Shown here piece by piece: positions 14,222 through 32,271 of a DNA stretch of 33,227 nt. Location of the stretch: NCBI GenBank assembly GCA_945867505.1, contig CAMBIM010000010.1, forward strand, positions 1-33,227. The letters are read 5' to 3'. The translations under genes and the position numbers were made by a program. The stretch comes from Chitinophaga pinensis (GTDB taxonomy: Bacteria; Bacteroidota; Bacteroidia; Chitinophagales; LD1). The notes under the pieces were generated by a model. That model worked only from the letters and a program-made list of their open reading frames with translations, did no database searches and had not been told where the DNA came from. Position 1 is the first letter of the stretch. The number at the start of each line of letters is the position of its first letter.

Positions 14222-16660
14222 ATGCAGGTTTTAAAATTCGGAGGCACCTCGGTTGCCAACGCAGAAAATATTTTGAAGACGATTGCTATAGTACAGAAAG
14301 CAGTTGCAAAAGGCAAGACTATGGTTGTGGTATCTGCACTTGGCGGAACTACTGATATGATGATTGATGTAGGAAAGTTAGCAGCAAGCGGAAATGAGTC
14401 CTACAAAGAAAAGTTAAGTGCTATTGAGCAACGCCATCTGCAAACGGTAAAGGGTTTAATACCAGTGGCGAATCAAAGTGCCATTTTGAGCGAAATAAAA
14501 AAGCAGTGCAACGAACTGGAGGCTATATGTGAAGGAGTTTTTTTACTACGCGAATTATCTATCCGCACACTTGACCGTATTGTAAGTTTTGGGGAACTAA
14601 TGTCGTCCATCATTATTTCACACAAACTAAAATCACTTGATGTAAAACACGAATGGAAAGATTCGCGCGAGTTGATAGAAACAAATTCTAACTACACGTT
14701 TGCCGCAGTAAACTTTGATGCGACTAATAAAAAAGTTGCAGCTTTTGTAAAAGAAAAACCTTCTGCGTTTTATCTGTTTCCCGGATTTATTGCAAGTGAT
14801 GCCACAGGTGTTACCACCACGCTTGGTCGTGGAGGTTCAGATTATACCGCAGCAATTTTTGCTGCCGCAGTTAAAGCAAGTGTTTTAGAAATATGGACGG
14901 ATGTAAGCGGCATGATGACAGCCGACCCGCGCTTGGTGCAGAACGTAAAAGTGATTCCGCGCATTTCGTATCAAGAGGCTATGGAGCTTTCTCACTTTGG
15001 TGCTAAGGTTATTTATCCGCCAACTATTCAACCGGTGATGAGTTTAGGAGTGCCACTTTGGATTAAGAACACATTTGCGCCCGATGATGAAGGAACGCTG
15101 ATTGAAAACAAAACTGATGCTAACCAAAATGTGGTAACAGGTATTTCAAGTATCGGCAAGGTTTCTATGTTGTTGCTGGAGGGAAGCGGGATGATTGGTA
15201 TTCCGGGTTTTTCGAAACGTTTGTTCGAGGCTCTATCGAAAGAAAAAATAAATGTGATTCTGATTACGCAAAGTTCTTCGGAACATTCGATATGTGTAGC
15301 TATTGATGAAGCCAACGCTGCCAAAGCAAAGTCGGCAGTGGATGCAGAATTTGATTATGAAATAGGAACAAAAAAATTAGAACCGTTAAGCGTAGAAAAT
15401 TCATTAGCTATTGTGGCGCTGGTTGGCGATAACATGAAAAACCATCCGGGTATTAGCGGGAGAATGTTCAGCGCGCTGGGAAAGAATGGCGTGAACATTC
15501 GTGCCATTGCGCAGGGGTCTTCGGAAAAAAATATCTCTGCGGTTATTACAGCACCGGATGTAAAAAAAGCCATCAACGTATTGCACGAAGAGTTTTTTGA
15601 AACCACTTACAAGCAAGTGAATCTTTTTATTTCGGGAGCGGGGAATGTTGGCAAACGCTTAATTGAACAACTAAAGCTGCAACTGGAATATCTGCAAACG
15701 CATTTGCGCTTAAACATTCGTGTGGTGGCTATTGCCAACAGTAAACAAGTTGCACTTAATGAAGAAGGGCTTGATTTGAATAGTTGGGAAGTTGAATTGA
15801 AGAAAGCTGCGCCAATGAAGTTGAATGAGTTGATAAAATTTATTCAGGAGAAGAATTTGCGCAACTCTGTTTTTGTAGATGTAACAGCTAATGAAGAAGT
15901 TTCAAAAACTTATGCTTCACTGTTGCAGAAAAGTATATCAGTAGTGGCTTGCAATAAAATCGCAGCGTCTTCTTTTTACAACAATTACGAGCAATTAAAA
16001 GATACGGCACGCGAATTCAACACATCGTTCTTGTTTGAAACGAATGTGGGTGCAGGGCTGCCGGTTATAGGAACGCTGAATGATTTAATGCGCAGTGGCG
16101 ATGAAGTGCAGAAAATGCAAGCGGTGCTTAGTGGCACATTGAATTTTGTTTTCAATAATTATGATGGCACAAAAACATTTGCCAGTGTAGTTAAGCAAGC
16201 GCAAGACGAAGGCTACACCGAACCGGATCCAAGGTTAGATTTAGGAGGCACCGATGTAATGCGCAAAATTTTGATTCTGGCCCGCGAAGCCGGAAATAAA
16301 ATGGAGATGAGTCATATTGCTAACGATATTTTCTTGCCCGAAGAATGTATGCAAGGTGATGTGCCGGCCTTCTACAAAGCATTAGAAAAGCATGAGTCGC
16401 ATTTCAAAAAATTGTTTGACGAAGCCAATGCAAAGAACTGCAAACTAAAATTTGTTGCCCAGCTGGAAAATGGAAAAGCATCAGTTGGTTTACAGCATAT
16501 CGGTAAAGAGCACGACTTATATCATTTATATGGAAAAGATAATGTGGTGTTGTTTTACACGCGCAGATATTCGCAGCAACCTTTAGTAATCAAAGGCGCA
16601 GGAGCTGGTGCGGATGTAACAGCATCGGGTGTGTTTGCTGATATTTTAAGAGCCGTTTAA
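14222..16660 (+). CDS. thrA: Bifunctional aspartokinase / homoserine dehydrogenase
   Basis: 812 residues, the normal length for the fused enzyme. It catalyses the first and third steps of threonine synthesis in the cytosol: aspartate to aspartyl phosphate, and aspartate semialdehyde to homoserine. The aspartokinase domain is at 1-300 (KFGGTS at 5-10; FPGFIASD and TTTLGRGGSDYTA at about 186-210). Tandem ACT domains lie at about 313-460 and are inferred to bind threonine for feedback control. The homoserine dehydrogenase domain runs from about 467 with the NAD(P) motif SGAGNVG (471-477) and, later, ETNVGAGLPVIGTL and GTLNFVFNNYD. It is the first gene of thrA-thrB-thrC, with 2 nt before thrB. 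Confidence 0.96.
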   Translation: MQVLKFGGTSVANAENILKTIAIVQKAVAKGKTMVVVSALGGTTDMMIDVGKLAASGNESYKEKLSAIEQRHLQTVKGLIPVANQSAILSEIKKQCNELEAICEGVFLLRELSIRTLDRIVSFGELMSSIIISHKLKSLDVKHEWKDSRELIETNSNYTFAAVNFDATNKKVAAFVKEKPSAFYLFPGFIASDATGVTTTLGRGGSDYTAAIFAAAVKASVLEIWTDVSGMMTADPRLVQNVKVIPRISYQEAMELSHFGAKVIYPPTIQPVMSLGVPLWIKNTFAPDDEGTLIENKTDANQNVVTGISSIGKVSMLLLEGSGMIGIPGFSKRLFEALSKEKINVILITQSSSEHSICVAIDEANAAKAKSAVDAEFDYEIGTKKLEPLSVENSLAIVALVGDNMKNHPGISGRMFSALGKNGVNIRAIAQGSSEKNISAVITAPDVKKAINVLHEEFFETTYKQVNLFISGAGNVGKRLIEQLKLQLEYLQTHLRLNIRVVAIANSKQVALNEEGLDLNSWEVELKKAAPMKLNELIKFIQEKNLRNSVFVDVTANEEVSKTYASLLQKSISVVACNKIAASSFYNNYEQLKDTAREFNTSFLFETNVGAGLPVIGTLNDLMRSGDEVQKMQAVLSGTLNFVFNNYDGTKTFASVVKQAQDEGYTEPDPRLDLGGTDVMRKILILAREAGNKMEMSHIANDIFLPEECMQGDVPAFYKALEKHESHFKKLFDEANAKNCKLKFVAQLENGKASVGLQHIGKEHDLYHLYGKDNVVLFYTRRYSQQPLVIKGAGAGADVTASGVFADILRAV

Positions 16661-16662
16661 CT

Positions 16663-17586
16663 ATGAAACAAGTAACTGTTTTATCGCCCGCTACTGTCGC
16701 CAATATTGTTTGTGGCTTTGATGTATTGGGTCTTGCCCTATACGCGCCAAGTGATAAACTGGTGATGCGGTTGCTCAATAAACGAGAAATACGCATCGTT
16801 AATAAAGACAGTTTTAATCTTCCTATCGAACCTGAAAAAAATGTTTTTGGTGGCGCATTGTTTGCCATGATGAAGGAAATAAAAGAAGAAATTGGCTTTG
16901 AAATTGAAAGCACAAAAATGATTATGCCCGGTAGCGGCATAGGTTCAAGTGCAGCAAGCGCAGCTGGTGTGGTGGTAGCGGCAAATCATTTGCTTGGCAA
17001 CCGGTTTGCAAAACAAGAGTTGGTGCAGTTTGCCACTTATGGCGAGCACGTAGCATCCGGTTCGCGACATGCCGATAATATTGCCCCCTGTATTTACGGA
17101 GGCGTTACGCTCATTCGCAGTAACGACCCGCTCGATATTATTCCGTTGAACTTTCCGCCTTTGTATGTAACGGTTATTCATCCGCAAATAGAAGTAAAGA
17201 CCAGCGATGCACGACAGATTTTGAAGAAACAGATTTTGCTGAAAGATGCTATTACCCAATGGGCGAACGTAGCGGGACTGGTTACTGGTTTTATAAAGGA
17301 AGATTACGATTTAATCGGTCGCTCATTAGTTGATGTTTTAATTGAACCGGTGCGCAGTATGCTCATTCCTGGTTTTGATGAAATAAAAAAAGCGTGTATA
17401 GAATCCGGTGCATTGGGCGGAGGCATATCCGGTTCTGGGCCATCGGTTTTTATGTTGAGTAAAGATGAGGCAACAGCTAAAGCAGTTGAACAAGCCATGC
17501 GCACCGTGTATGAAAAAATAGGAGTTGATTTTCATATTCATTTAACTACCGTAAATCCTCGCGGTGTTGAAGTTGTAAATTCTTAA
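16663..17586 (+). CDS. thrB: Homoserine kinase
   Basis: 307 residues, GHMP kinase family. It phosphorylates homoserine to O-phosphohomoserine using ATP. The ATP-binding motif PGSGIGSSAAS is at 89-99. The N-terminal SPATVANIVCGFDVLGLAL and the C-terminal GISGSGPSVFML are also family signatures. It begins 2 nt after thrA and ends 6 nt before thrC, so the three genes are almost certainly one transcript with coupled translation. Confidence 0.96.
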   Translation: MKQVTVLSPATVANIVCGFDVLGLALYAPSDKLVMRLLNKREIRIVNKDSFNLPIEPEKNVFGGALFAMMKEIKEEIGFEIESTKMIMPGSGIGSSAASAAGVVVAANHLLGNRFAKQELVQFATYGEHVASGSRHADNIAPCIYGGVTLIRSNDPLDIIPLNFPPLYVTVIHPQIEVKTSDARQILKKQILLKDAITQWANVAGLVTGFIKEDYDLIGRSLVDVLIEPVRSMLIPGFDEIKKACIESGALGGGISGSGPSVFMLSKDEATAKAVEQAMRTVYEKIGVDFHIHLTTVNPRGVEVVNS

Positions 17587-17592
17587 ACAGCG

Positions 17593-18897
17593 ATGCTTTA
17601 CCACAGCACCAACAATAATTCAGAGAAAGTAAATTTTAGAGAAGCTACCATTCGCGGGCAAGCACCGGATAAGGGGTTGTATTTTCCGGATACGATTCCC
17701 GCTTTATCAAATCAGTTTCTTTCATCATTTAAACAAAAATCGAAATCGCAAATTGCATTTGAAGTTATTCGGCCTTATGTGGGAGATACAATTACCGAGT
17801 TGGATTTATTTCAAATCTGCGAACACACGGTCAACTTTGATTTTCCTCTCGTAAAAGTTTCGGATAATTTTTCCTCGCTCGAATTATTTCACGGACCAAC
17901 GCTCGCTTTTAAAGATGTTGGCGCAAGATTCATGAGTCGCTGTCTGGGCCACTTTTCAAAATCTAATAGCCGTAAGATAACGGTGCTTGTAGCTACTTCA
18001 GGCGATACCGGCAGTGCGGTGGCTAATGGTTTTTTAGGAGTAGAAGGCGTGGATGTAATTATTCTTTATCCCGCTGGTAAGGTGAGCAAAATTCAGGAGT
18101 TGCAATTAACCACACTTGGGCAAAACATTACAGCGCTTGAAGTGCAGGGAACGTTTGATGACTGTCAACAGATGGTGAAGCAGGCGTTTATGGATGCCGA
18201 ACTAAACGCAAAGCATTTTCTTACTTCTGCTAATAGTATAAACATAGCGCGCTGGTTGCCGCAACAATTCTATTATTTCTATGCTTTGCAACAGTGGCAA
18301 AACGAAGAACCACCGATTGTGTGTGTGCCCAGCGGAAATTTTGGAAATATCTGTGCGGGATTAATTGCTGCGGTTTCTGGTTTGCCGGTGAAGCATTTTG
18401 TGGCTGCTTGCAACAGTAACGATGTGTTCACCAAGTATCTTTCATCCGGTCAGTTGAATTCGCAACAAGCTGTGGCTACTATTTCGAATGCAATGGATGT
18501 AGGCAACCCGAGCAACCTGGTACGTCTGCTCGAAATGTTTGGCAACGATTATCAGCGCATCAAAAACTTTATCAGCAGTTATTCTATCAGCGATGAAGAA
18601 ACGTCAGCCACTATTTCGCGCGTTTATAAAGACTATAACTATACGCTCGACCCGCACGGTGCGGTGGCTTATGCATCGTTAGAAAAATATTTGGCTTCAA
18701 CCCCGAAAGGGTTTCAAACCCTTTCGGGGTTATTTTTAGAAACTGCTCACCCAGTTAAGTTTAGCGATGTGGTTGAAAGAGCCACCGGTGTGCCAATCGA
18801 GTTTCCCGAATCCATGAAACATCTTCTGCATTTGCAAAAGAAGAGCGTGTTGATAGAAGCGAAGTATGAAGCGTTGAAGAGCTTTCTTAATGCTTAA
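17593..18897 (+). CDS. thrC: Threonine synthase
   Basis: 434 residues, PLP-dependent fold type II. It converts O-phosphohomoserine to threonine, the last step of the operon's pathway. The PLP lysine is Lys107 in HGPTLAFKDVGARF, and the phosphate-binding ATSGDTGSA follows at about 136-144. Residues 369-379 (about STPKGFQTLSG) are encoded by a perfect 33-bp palindrome just before the conserved FLETAHPVKFSDVV, and appear to be an in-frame insertion. The reading frame is intact. The stop overlaps that of the convergent permease gene by 4 nt, leaving no room for a separate terminator. Confidence 0.95.
   Translation: MLYHSTNNNSEKVNFREATIRGQAPDKGLYFPDTIPALSNQFLSSFKQKSKSQIAFEVIRPYVGDTITELDLFQICEHTVNFDFPLVKVSDNFSSLELFHGPTLAFKDVGARFMSRCLGHFSKSNSRKITVLVATSGDTGSAVANGFLGVEGVDVIILYPAGKVSKIQELQLTTLGQNITALEVQGTFDDCQQMVKQAFMDAELNAKHFLTSANSINIARWLPQQFYYFYALQQWQNEEPPIVCVPSGNFGNICAGLIAAVSGLPVKHFVAACNSNDVFTKYLSSGQLNSQQAVATISNAMDVGNPSNLVRLLEMFGNDYQRIKNFISSYSISDEETSATISRVYKDYNYTLDPHGAVAYASLEKYLASTPKGFQTLSGLFLETAHPVKFSDVVERATGVPIEFPESMKHLLHLQKKSVLIEAKYEALKSFLNA
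18699..18731. repeat. Perfect 33-bp palindrome in frame within thrC
   Basis: AACCCCGAAAGGGTTT (18699-18714), one central base (18715), then the exact reverse complement (18716-18731). It is 11 codons long, does not disturb the frame, and adds residues 369-379 of threonine synthase. It is probably an interspersed palindromic element. Confidence 0.85.
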
Positions 18898-19913
18898 TGT
18901 TCCTTCCCGAAATATTCGTTGCGATAAATTTTGAGCAACAGAATAAAATAAGAGATAAGCAGCGGTCCAAAAATAATTCCTACAAAACCAAATAGCGGTA
19001 AGCCAATTATAACACCAAAGAAGGTAATGAGCGGATGTGTATCGCCAAGCTTTTTCTGCACCACAAACCTGAACACATTATCTACGTTAGTAATAATTAC
19101 ACTGCCATAAATAAGCAGTGCAGCACCCTGCCAATGGTTGCCCGCTGCGTACAAAAATATTGCCAGAGGCACCCACACAATTGTTGTGCCTATCACCGGC
19201 ACTACGCTCATAACACCGGTAAGCACGGCCCAAAACAAAGGTTCATCTACACCGAAGACGAGGTAGCCGATATAGGCAGTAATAGCTTGCAGGATAGCCA
19301 GGACCAGTATGCCTATAGAGTTAGAAATGGTTTGAAGTTTTAACTCGCTTAATAACAGCGCGTTGTTTTCGTTCTTAAAAGGCAGACTTTTTCTAATGTA
19401 CGCTACAAATGTCTTCGCGTTAGCCAACATAAAGTACAGCATAAAATATAGCACAAAAATATCGGCTACCACACTTAAGGTTGCTGATAAAAAACCCGGC
19501 ACCACATCGGCAGCCAACGAAGTAAGTTTCCCTACAGTATCTTGCGAAAGCAAATCTATACCCATGTAATCTTTTGCCTTATTACTCCACTCTTGACCAA
19601 TGCGCAGTATATCTTCATAGTGGGTAATGAGGTAACTTACCTTACCGGATAACATGACTGACACAAGAAAAACCGGCATCACTAAAACTAAAAAGGAAGC
19701 AAACATCAACATTACTACTGCCAGCGTTTTATTCCACTTGCGTTTTGCTTTTTGAGTGAGGTAGAAAAACGGTTGACGCAGTAAGACATAAAAAACTACC
19801 GCACCTAAGAAGGCACTTAAAAATCCTTTTAATAACCAAAATAAAAAGCCGCCTAGTACGAAAAGCGTTAGCAGAAAAAGCGATTGTTTGAGTTTATCGT
19901 TATTCAAATGCAT
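18894..19913 (-). CDS. AI-2E (PerM/YdiK) family transporter
   Basis: 339 residues with about eight membrane helices in the pattern of this family: two N-terminal hairpins, a soluble middle region (about 100-145) and a C-terminal helical bundle. The late segment VMSVVPVIGTTIVWVPLAIF (about 235-254) matches the conserved PIGT region, and FVQKKLGDTHPLITFFGVI also fits. The family exports diverse solutes; the autoinducer-2 role applies to few members, so the substrate is unknown. The ATG at 19913 sits 4 nt after a predicted -7 element and 36 bp from the divergent esterase gene. Confidence 0.9.
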   Translation of the reverse strand: MHLNNDKLKQSLFLLTLFVLGGFLFWLLKGFLSAFLGAVVFYVLLRQPFFYLTQKAKRKWNKTLAVVMLMFASFLVLVMPVFLVSVMLSGKVSYLITHYEDILRIGQEWSNKAKDYMGIDLLSQDTVGKLTSLAADVVPGFLSATLSVVADIFVLYFMLYFMLANAKTFVAYIRKSLPFKNENNALLLSELKLQTISNSIGILVLAILQAITAYIGYLVFGVDEPLFWAVLTGVMSVVPVIGTTIVWVPLAIFLYAAGNHWQGAALLIYGSVIITNVDNVFRFVVQKKLGDTHPLITFFGVIIGLPLFGFVGIIFGPLLISYFILLLKIYRNEYFGKEH

Positions 19914-30370: not shown

Positions 30371-30958
30371 ATGAACGCAACAGACATTATTGAAATTTAT
30401 ACCGAAATGACTCCCAACCCCGAGAGTTTGAAGTTTGTAACCAGTCGCCACATTCTTCCCAACTTCCAGCTCGATTTTAAAACTAAAGAACTCGCAGCCG
30501 GTTCGCAGTTGGCAAAAGCACTTTTCGAAATTTCTTTTGTAGGTGGGGTTTTTATAGCCAACAATTTTGTAACTGTAACTAAGAAAGCAGAATTTGAATG
30601 GTTCGAAATTACACCCGAAATAAAAGATGCCATTATCAACTTTCTGCAAAGCGGGAAAAAACCGGTAGATGATTCGTTACTGCCTAAAGATATTTTGCAG
30701 GAACAAAAATCCGAAGCTGCTAACGAAGACCCTGAAACGAAAATTAAAGACCTGCTCGATAAATATGTAAAGCCTGCTGTGCAAATGGATGGCGGGCATA
30801 TCGAATTCAAATCATTCGAAAACGGCACGGTTACCCTTTCGCTGCAAGGTTCTTGCAGCAGTTGTCCTTCATCTACCCTCACGCTTAAATCAGGTATCGA
30901 AGGTTTGCTTAAACGCATGGTGCCCGAAGTAGAAGAAGTAGTTGCCGAAGCCGAATAA
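30371..30958 (+). CDS. Nfu-type iron-sulfur cluster carrier (NifU-like)
   Basis: 195 residues. The Nfu N-terminal domain is at about 5-95 (YTEMTPNPESLKFV, typical of Nfu proteins). The NifU C-terminal domain is at about 123-192 with VQMDGGHIEF and the cluster-binding Cys162 and Cys165 in GSCSSCPSS. The two are joined by a charged linker (about 97-122). It holds a bridging [4Fe-4S] cluster as a dimer and passes it to apo-enzymes. No suf genes are in the window. A strong terminator follows, separating it from hflX. Confidence 0.93.
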   Translation: MNATDIIEIYTEMTPNPESLKFVTSRHILPNFQLDFKTKELAAGSQLAKALFEISFVGGVFIANNFVTVTKKAEFEWFEITPEIKDAIINFLQSGKKPVDDSLLPKDILQEQKSEAANEDPETKIKDLLDKYVKPAVQMDGGHIEFKSFENGTVTLSLQGSCSSCPSSTLTLKSGIEGLLKRMVPEVEEVVAEAE

Positions 30959-30976
30959 TTTTAATTAGACAATACA

Positions 30977-31011
30977 AAAATCCTCTTCTGAATTTTACAG
31001 AAGAGGATTTT
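30977..31011 (+). terminator. Intrinsic terminator after the Nfu gene
   Basis: Perfect 14-bp stem (30977-30990 with 30998-31011) and a 7-nt loop, starting 18 nt after the stop. The right arm ends in a T-run that directly abuts the predicted hflX -7 element. Confidence 0.75.
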
Positions 31012-31035: not shown

Positions 31036-32271
31036 ATGAAGGAGAAAGTAAAATTTGGAACCGATAACACCATTGTGCACACCGAAACGGCTGTGCTGGT
31101 AGCTGTTGTTCCTAAAGAACAAAGCGATGAGCAGACTACAGAATATTTAGATGAACTCGAATTTCTGGCCGAAACCGATGGCGTAAAAACGCTTAAACGT
31201 TTTACCCAACGTTTGGCGCACCCCGATAACAAAAGCTATGTAGGCAAAGGAAAGTTAGAAGAAATAAAAGCGTATGTAGAAGAAAAAGGCATTGACTTGA
31301 TTCTTATTGATGACGAAATTTCGCCTTCGCAGCAACGCAACATCGAAGAAGTTTTAAAGAAGCGGGTGCTGGATAGAAGCATGTTGATTCTCGATATCTT
31401 CGCGCAACGCGCCCGAACCGTGCAGGCAAAAACGCAAGTAGAATTGGCGCAACTGCAATACATGTTGCCGCGCTTGAAAGGCATGTGGACCCACTTAGAG
31501 CGTCAGCGCGGAGGAACCGGAACGCGTGGTGGTGCCGGTGAAAAAGAAATTGAAACCGATAGACGGATTGCCGAGCGCAAAATAACTGCGCTTAAAGAAG
31601 ACCTTAAAAAAATCGACAAGCAAAACATAACGCGCAGAAAAAGTCGCGCGGATATGACGCGCGTGGCCTTATTGGGCTACACCAACGTAGGCAAATCAAC
31701 CCTCATGAATTTGCTGGCAAAGGAAAACGTGTTTGCCGAAAACAAACTCTTTGCCACGCTGGATACCACAGTTCGCAAAGTAACTTTTAATGCTGTGCCG
31801 TTTTTGTTGAGCGATACAGTGGGCTTCATCCGCAAACTGCCGCATCACTTGGTAGAAAGTTTTAAATCAACTTTAGATGAAGCTATAGAAGCCGATATTC
31901 TTTTGCATGTGGTCGATATTTCGCATCCCGCTTTTCAGGACCAAATGAATGTGGTTAGCGAAATTTTGAAAGAACTGAAATGCGACACCAAACCGGTGAT
32001 AGTTATCTTCAACAAAATGGATTTGTATGAACAAAACCAGTTTGACGAATATCTGCCCGATGATGTAAAAAAGAACATGCTTACCGAACTAAAAGATAGT
32101 TGGATGGCCAAAACCCACGACAACTGCATTTTTGTTTCTGCCGTTCAAAACAGAAACACAGCCGAGCTACGCGAGTTGCTTTTTCAAAAAGTGAAAAAGC
32201 TTTACCTAGAGCGTTACCCTTACAAAGCCGGCTACTGGCAGGATTATACCGAACAGCTTACCGAAGAGTAG
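31036..32271 (+). CDS. hflX: Ribosome-associated GTPase HflX
   Basis: 411 residues. It binds stalled ribosomes, mainly the 50S side, and splits them under stress. The N-terminal HflX domain is at about 10-130, with RLAHPDNKSYVGKGKLEEI as its signature. The glycine-rich stretch QRGGTGTRGGAGEKEIETD is at about 157-175. In the G domain, the P-loop GYTNVGKS is at 214-221, DTVG at 260-263 and NKMD at 326-329. The short C-terminal domain is present. Monocistronic: a terminator precedes it and a predicted promoter follows. Confidence 0.95.
   Translation: MKEKVKFGTDNTIVHTETAVLVAVVPKEQSDEQTTEYLDELEFLAETDGVKTLKRFTQRLAHPDNKSYVGKGKLEEIKAYVEEKGIDLILIDDEISPSQQRNIEEVLKKRVLDRSMLILDIFAQRARTVQAKTQVELAQLQYMLPRLKGMWTHLERQRGGTGTRGGAGEKEIETDRRIAERKITALKEDLKKIDKQNITRRKSRADMTRVALLGYTNVGKSTLMNLLAKENVFAENKLFATLDTTVRKVTFNAVPFLLSDTVGFIRKLPHHLVESFKSTLDEAIEADILLHVVDISHPAFQDQMNVVSEILKELKCDTKPVIVIFNKMDLYEQNQFDEYLPDDVKKNMLTELKDSWMAKTHDNCIFVSAVQNRNTAELRELLFQKVKKLYLERYPYKAGYWQDYTEQLTEE

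Follow-up and report, generated by a model that had tools for sequence, protein, structure and literature searches.

A 33-bp palindrome in frame in thrC and its dispersed counterparts in a genus of Bacteroidota

The threonine synthase gene thrC of the Bacteroidota genome studied here (G000) carries a perfect palindrome of 33 bp, and the question that this locus raises is how such a sequence came to lie in frame in an intact host gene. The window, by which we mean the whole stretch of DNA analysed (33,227 nt), contains the thr operon and its neighbours (Table 1). The sequence-only reading of this stretch proposed an interspersed palindromic element that tolerates protein-coding sites. The palindrome is quite probably a copy of a non-autonomous REP/RPE-like interspersed palindromic repeat, here called family A, which would be a tolerated passenger where it lies in protein loops.

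The element reads AACCCCGAAAGGGTTT-C-AAACCCTTTCGGGGTT, an exact inverted repeat at 18699-18731 with 16-bp arms, a one-base centre and 0 mismatches, just as first described. The frame is undamaged, as was also claimed, since thrC is a single ORF that scores 284.7 bits against the NCBIfam thrC model (TIGR00260; cut-off 167.1). The length of 11 codons is correct, but the register is not that of whole codons: the first of the 33 nt is base 3 of codon 369 and the last is base 2 of codon 380. The resulting peptide is (S)TPKGFQTLSG(L), where the bracketed residues are only partly encoded by the element. A chance palindrome is ruled out by dinucleotide shuffles of the window, which gave 0 such palindromes even with 3 mismatches permitted. 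The strong mRNA hairpin that was predicted is borne out by folding (-40.5 kcal/mol for the 111-nt segment, z = -4.5). The element has no Rfam match at the gathering threshold, and the sole sub-threshold match is a FuFi-1 fragment (E 0.86).

Table 1. Positions of the palindrome, its parts and the surrounding genes in the window.
Feature	Position	Strand	Remark
Bifunctional aspartokinase / homoserine dehydrogenase, gene 1 of thr operon	14222..16660	+	
Homoserine kinase (GHMP kinase family), gene 2 of thr operon	16663..17586	+	Named from family and position
thrC, threonine synthase, 434 aa, intact host gene	17593..18897	+	TIGR00260; best PDB match 1vb3
Family A palindrome, 33 bp, 16-bp arms, central C	18699..18731	.	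Encodes T370-G379 of ThrC
Left arm AACCCCGAAAGGGTTT	18699..18714	+	
Right arm AAACCCTTTCGGGGTT	18716..18731	+	Terminal GGGGTT overlaps site of ancestral G-L loop codons
T-rich tract ATTTTTAG 3' of hairpin	18732..18739	+	Terminator-like pattern, yet coding DNA
AI-2E family transporter gene, convergent to thrC	18894..19913	-	

The site of the element is a loop between two conserved blocks of ThrC, and 1vb3 is 6 residues shorter there. This position is taken from the sequence alignment to 1vb3; a single-sequence AlphaFold model of ThrC has a mean pLDDT of 39.8 and is unusable for loop placement. Among the 11 congeners in which ThrC covers the site, the element is absent from all 11, which agrees with the expectation that close relatives would lack the segment. 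The loop between the compared anchors is 78 nt long in 9 of the 11 and 90 nt in G000. The suggestion of an insertion in a normally short loop therefore stands as far as the longer loop is concerned, but not as a clean 11-residue insertion, since the net gain is 4 residues (12 nt). Such a gain indicates that the palindrome replaced part of the old loop, and from the aligned loops about 7 codons appear to have been lost or overwritten, rather than 33 nt cleanly inserted. The thrC loops of the congeners hold no relic of family A, nor of families B and C described below, and on this sampling the acquisition therefore seems recent and limited to the G000 lineage.

The other two of the 11, G005 and G017, and the incomplete gene of G010 differ at this loop. 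G005 has an in-frame copy of a different dispersed repeat, TTCGGCTACGCTCACCATGACA / TTCGGCTNCGCTCACCATGACA (L056/L125; G005:C50:17848-17869), and TTCGGCTNCGCTCACCATGACA occurs again about 40 bp 3' of its thrC (G005:C50:18086-18107). Copies of TTCGGCTNCGCTCACCATGACA at no more than 1 mismatch number 24 in G010 and 13 in G005. The incomplete thrC of G010 is interrupted by a contig end that falls inside a copy of the G005-type repeat at the loop position, and in G017 the loop is as long as in G000 and contains an imperfect inverted repeat of 10 bp. Because of these three genomes, the thrC loop looks insertion-tolerant.

A search of G000 (2.94 Mb, 74% complete) with mismatches allowed shows that the 33-mer does recur, with 8 copies at no more than 3 mismatches, one of them in frame in argS; this supports the proposal of an interspersed element that tolerates coding sites. 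The reversed control pattern has 0 copies in G000. Family A is present in 4 of the 149 genomes searched (G000 included), all from one genus, with 6 copies in G008, 7 in G016 and 8 in G017. The other 145 genomes have 0 copies (14 of the 17 other congeners and all 131 other relatives). Beyond the genus, the only exact copies detected are in two Bacteroidota MAGs, one from Flavobacteriia and one from Polaribacter, and viral contigs gave no exact copy. An assembly artefact is ruled out, as the same element occurs in independently assembled MAGs.

Most family A copies are intergenic, often directly 3' of a stop codon. One orthologous intergenic copy differs between G000 and G017 by a compensated change from C-G to T-A. 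Seven orthologous pairs include no clean empty site and no target duplication; the orthologous sites hold unrelated sequence. A diverged copy in G000, L008 (G000:C20:21165-21197), may lie at a rearrangement breakpoint, because its two flanks match separate G017 contigs, C1 and C10. In G008, two copies (L071:1492-1542 and L034:1496-1538) form the middle of larger perfect palindromes, the outer 9 and 5 bp of which are unique sequence. They may have entered existing palindromes at the tip or have been lengthened by templated correction. The flank symmetry of family A copies is weak overall (permutation P = 0.045 for runs and 0.66 for the first five positions).

In-frame copies occur in three housekeeping genes, each time in a variable loop: thrC (STPKGFQTLSGL) in G000 only, argS (ETPKGFETLSGL) in G000 and G008 and, diverged, in G016, and mnmE (TTPKGLETPSGL) in G008. 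The mnmE insertion is judged from match lengths, PDB 3gee and Pfam: relative to 3gee and to Pfam TrmE_N, the G008 protein has about 15 extra residues exactly at the element, and nearly all congeners have a shorter coding match. All three genes carry the element in one codon phase, with the centre base as codon base 1 and the peptide T-P-[KT]-G-[FL]-x-T-x-S-G-L (TPKGFxTLSGL). As up to three phases are stop-free, the chance of this agreement is about 1 in 9 for three insertions, or 1 in 27 if a family B copy in argS (see below) is counted as a fourth. It is suggestive only.

Of all the sites, the argS loop tells most about the element. G000 has a perfect family A palindrome in it and G008 a family A copy with one mismatch, while the G016 sequence, AACCACAAAAGGGTTT-G-AAACCCTTTTGTGGTT, is a family A copy in which two pairs are altered on both sides and the symmetry remains perfect. 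G017 has AGACTTGGCAGGTTTT-A-AAAACCTGCCAAGTCT at the same codons, a perfect palindrome of the second 33-bp family, B, which shares the 16-1-16 architecture of family A. The argS genes of four further congeners contain a decayed B copy that has lost its symmetry: G009 agrees with the B consensus at 23 of 28 positions and in the same register (about 1,670 other windows of its gene reach 15 at most), and G015, G014 and G003 have 18-19 matches in that register against 14-16 elsewhere in the gene. In a tree of ArgS and ThrC with the loops removed, G000, G016 and G017 join G009, G015, G003 and G014, with G008 outside; the support of 94 belongs to this group and not to the order within the trio. The distribution and the tree together suggest that a palindrome is probably a long-term resident of argS that decayed in some lineages and changed family at least once at the same codons. 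The change of family may have occurred by conversion, re-insertion or short-tract exchange between species.

Could the thrC hairpin instead be a regulatory RNA, that is, a terminator, or a hairpin close to the operon's end that stabilises the mRNA? The ends of thrC and the convergent transporter gene overlap by 4 bp and leave no intergenic spacer in which such a signal could lie. The hairpin is also the strongest terminator-like match in the region, with 15 pairs followed by ATTTTTAG, and has the low folding z-score given above. The scan lists it because of the T-rich thrC codons directly 3' of it, but similar T-rich codons are present in relatives that lack the hairpin, and termination at this point would remove the last 166 nt of thrC (about 55 codons). 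The same sequence also occurs in argS, mnmE and unrelated spacers, and a run of at least 6 T in 10 nt follows only 12 of the 58 family A copy ends. An intrinsic terminator family is ruled out for most copies. A regulatory function in thrC is thus unlikely, and given the cost of termination, the hairpin-less relatives and the scarcity of T-runs at other copies, we regard the thrC element as a passenger. Elsewhere in the window, a perfect 14-bp inverted repeat with a 7-nt loop (AAAATCCTCTTCTG / CAGAAGAGGATTTT, 30977-31011) is probably a terminator; it lies between a NifU-like ORF (30371-30958) and an HflX-like GTPase ORF (31036-32271), both named by inspection.

Slightly less likely still is that the palindrome grew in place, with AAAGGGTT already in the ancestral loop and an inverted duplicate added by snap-back copying. 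The thrC loop of several relatives contains AAAAGGGTT or comparable K-G-L codons, the net gain is 12 nt and not 33, and the compensated arms in argS and elsewhere point to symmetry that is maintained or renewed. However, the identical 16-mer arm is perfect at several unrelated sites in G000 and in three sister genomes, and independent formation of the same arm at such sites in four genomes is not credible; the AAAGGGTT microhomology may still have guided integration without any growth in place. Very improbable is a third reading, in which ThrC and ArgS each keep a conserved protein loop at the site and the DNA palindromy is a coincidence. In its favour, species that lack a perfect palindrome still have the GFxNLxxL residues of ArgS, and the argS loop is near constant in length across the genus. 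Against it, the residual argS codons fit the family B palindrome at the DNA level and in register, the spacer copies have no protein to conserve, and for thrC the absence of the residues from all relatives refutes this explanation.

A dispersed repeat is therefore the preferred reading, and the genus has more than one. Families B (AGACCTnnCAGGTTTTnAAAACCTGnnAGGTCT) and C (GTGCCACGGTTTnAAACCGTGGCAC) share a TTTnAAA core with family A. Family B has several arm variants, one of which is dominant and fully symmetric in each species: CTTCCAGG in G000, CTGCCAGG in G017, CTTATAGG in G006 and CTCGCAGG in both G016 and G008. Copies are alike within genomes and different between them, which fits lineage-specific spread. 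In G006, five family-B-like palindromes AGACCTTATAGGTTTTTAAAACCTATAAGGTCT lie exactly 294 bp apart (G006:C15:175051-176259), apparently as a tandem array in which each unit holds one palindrome.

Y1 (RAYT-type, PF01797) transposase genes are found through the genus. PF01797 has matches in G000 (2.4e-25), G008 and G016, whereas G017 has only a weak, divergent Y1 gene despite its 8 family A copies. In G006 a RAYT gene has CCATAGCCCACGGTTTAAACCGTGGGCTATGG copies on both sides (L091:1355-2156), and in G013 one is likewise flanked on both sides by palindromes of the same family (L107:1331-1362). These have a ACGGTTTAAACCGT core, and family C shares the core CCACGGTTT; G010 has the variants CGATTTAAATCG and CGGATTAATCCG of the RAYT-flanking family, each symmetric. 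This is the classical RAYT/REP arrangement (REPtron), which makes a Y1 enzyme a plausible leading candidate for the mobiliser. For family A itself this arrangement is not seen: no family A palindrome lies within the examined flanks of the Y1 genes of G000, G016, G008 and G017.

The family would spread as a hairpin-forming single strand through an HUH/Y1 (RAYT-type) transposase or, alternatively, by template switching at the hairpin during replication. Microhomology or template switching is considered because orthologous spacers contain unrelated sequence, and no clean gain accompanied by a target duplication is seen. Selection would purge most coding insertions, and the survivors would be in stop-free phases and in surface loops that tolerate them. 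In thrC, the element would have replaced the old loop codons on the lineage of the G000 species, possibly with the ancestral AAAGGGTT codons as microhomology for integration, and it would now encode an 11-residue segment of the loop and have no function in itself. The symmetry of the arms may be due to hairpin-templated correction, to recent spread, or to both.

The comparison with Rickettsia palindromic elements that was drawn at the outset holds for behaviour and fails for membership. As in Rickettsia, the repeats are interspersed, with several families per genome, and occur both in spacers and in frame in intact housekeeping genes (here thrC, argS and mnmE). RPE-1 type elements are about 100-150 bp long, whereas family A has 33 bp and resides in Bacteroidota. 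The RPE repeats of R. conorii have CGTC at one end (PMC3733652), an end tag that family A does not have. Family A thus appears distinct from the Rickettsia palindromes, being set apart by the description of RPEs in both length and tag.

GTAG/CGTC REPs resemble family A in that they are 20-40 bp long, form hairpins and are mainly extragenic. Intragenic REPs have been catalogued, some of them in tRNA synthetase genes, and different REPs lie near the same recB site in two Xanthomonas species (PMC3733652). The recB sites parallel the argS and thrC sites described here. In contrast to these REPs, family A has near-perfect symmetry, a one-base centre and no fixed tag: 52 of the 58 family A copy ends have no GTAG/CGTC within 10 nt, and none has it at a fixed place (6/58 ends with the tag nearby, against 8/232 control windows). 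Wolbachia palindromic elements and other MITE-like repeats are short and non-autonomous and can also end up inside genes. Family A differs from them in that neither a target duplication nor a unique core bounded by terminal inverted repeats was seen at its copies. A literature search for the exact arm sequences, with subscription journals mostly outside its scope, returned no paper. In-frame palindromes (in Rickettsia) and intragenic REPs are already known; what is new is the family itself (tagless, 16-1-16, in Bacteroidota), the recurring sites and the family exchange in argS.

Gene-invading in-frame palindromes have so far been described mainly in Rickettsia and in a small number of REP-rich genomes. 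The family described here is 33 bp long and occurs in free-living freshwater Bacteroidota, where orthologous sites are absent, perfect, swapped or decayed, so that the movement of such elements and the symmetry of their arms become questions that can be asked. The ThrC, ArgS and MnmE copies also form a series of naturally occurring loop insertions. A tentative extension, which we consider possible though not probable, is that fixed sites in essential genes switch from one palindrome family to another at the same place and in the same codon phase, with the arms kept symmetric by compensated changes. The shared GGTTTnAAACC core, or the hairpin itself, would guide the ectopic conversion behind such switches. 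If true, ectopic conversion of coding palindromes would be a form of concerted evolution in which DNA structure drives the change of protein loops.
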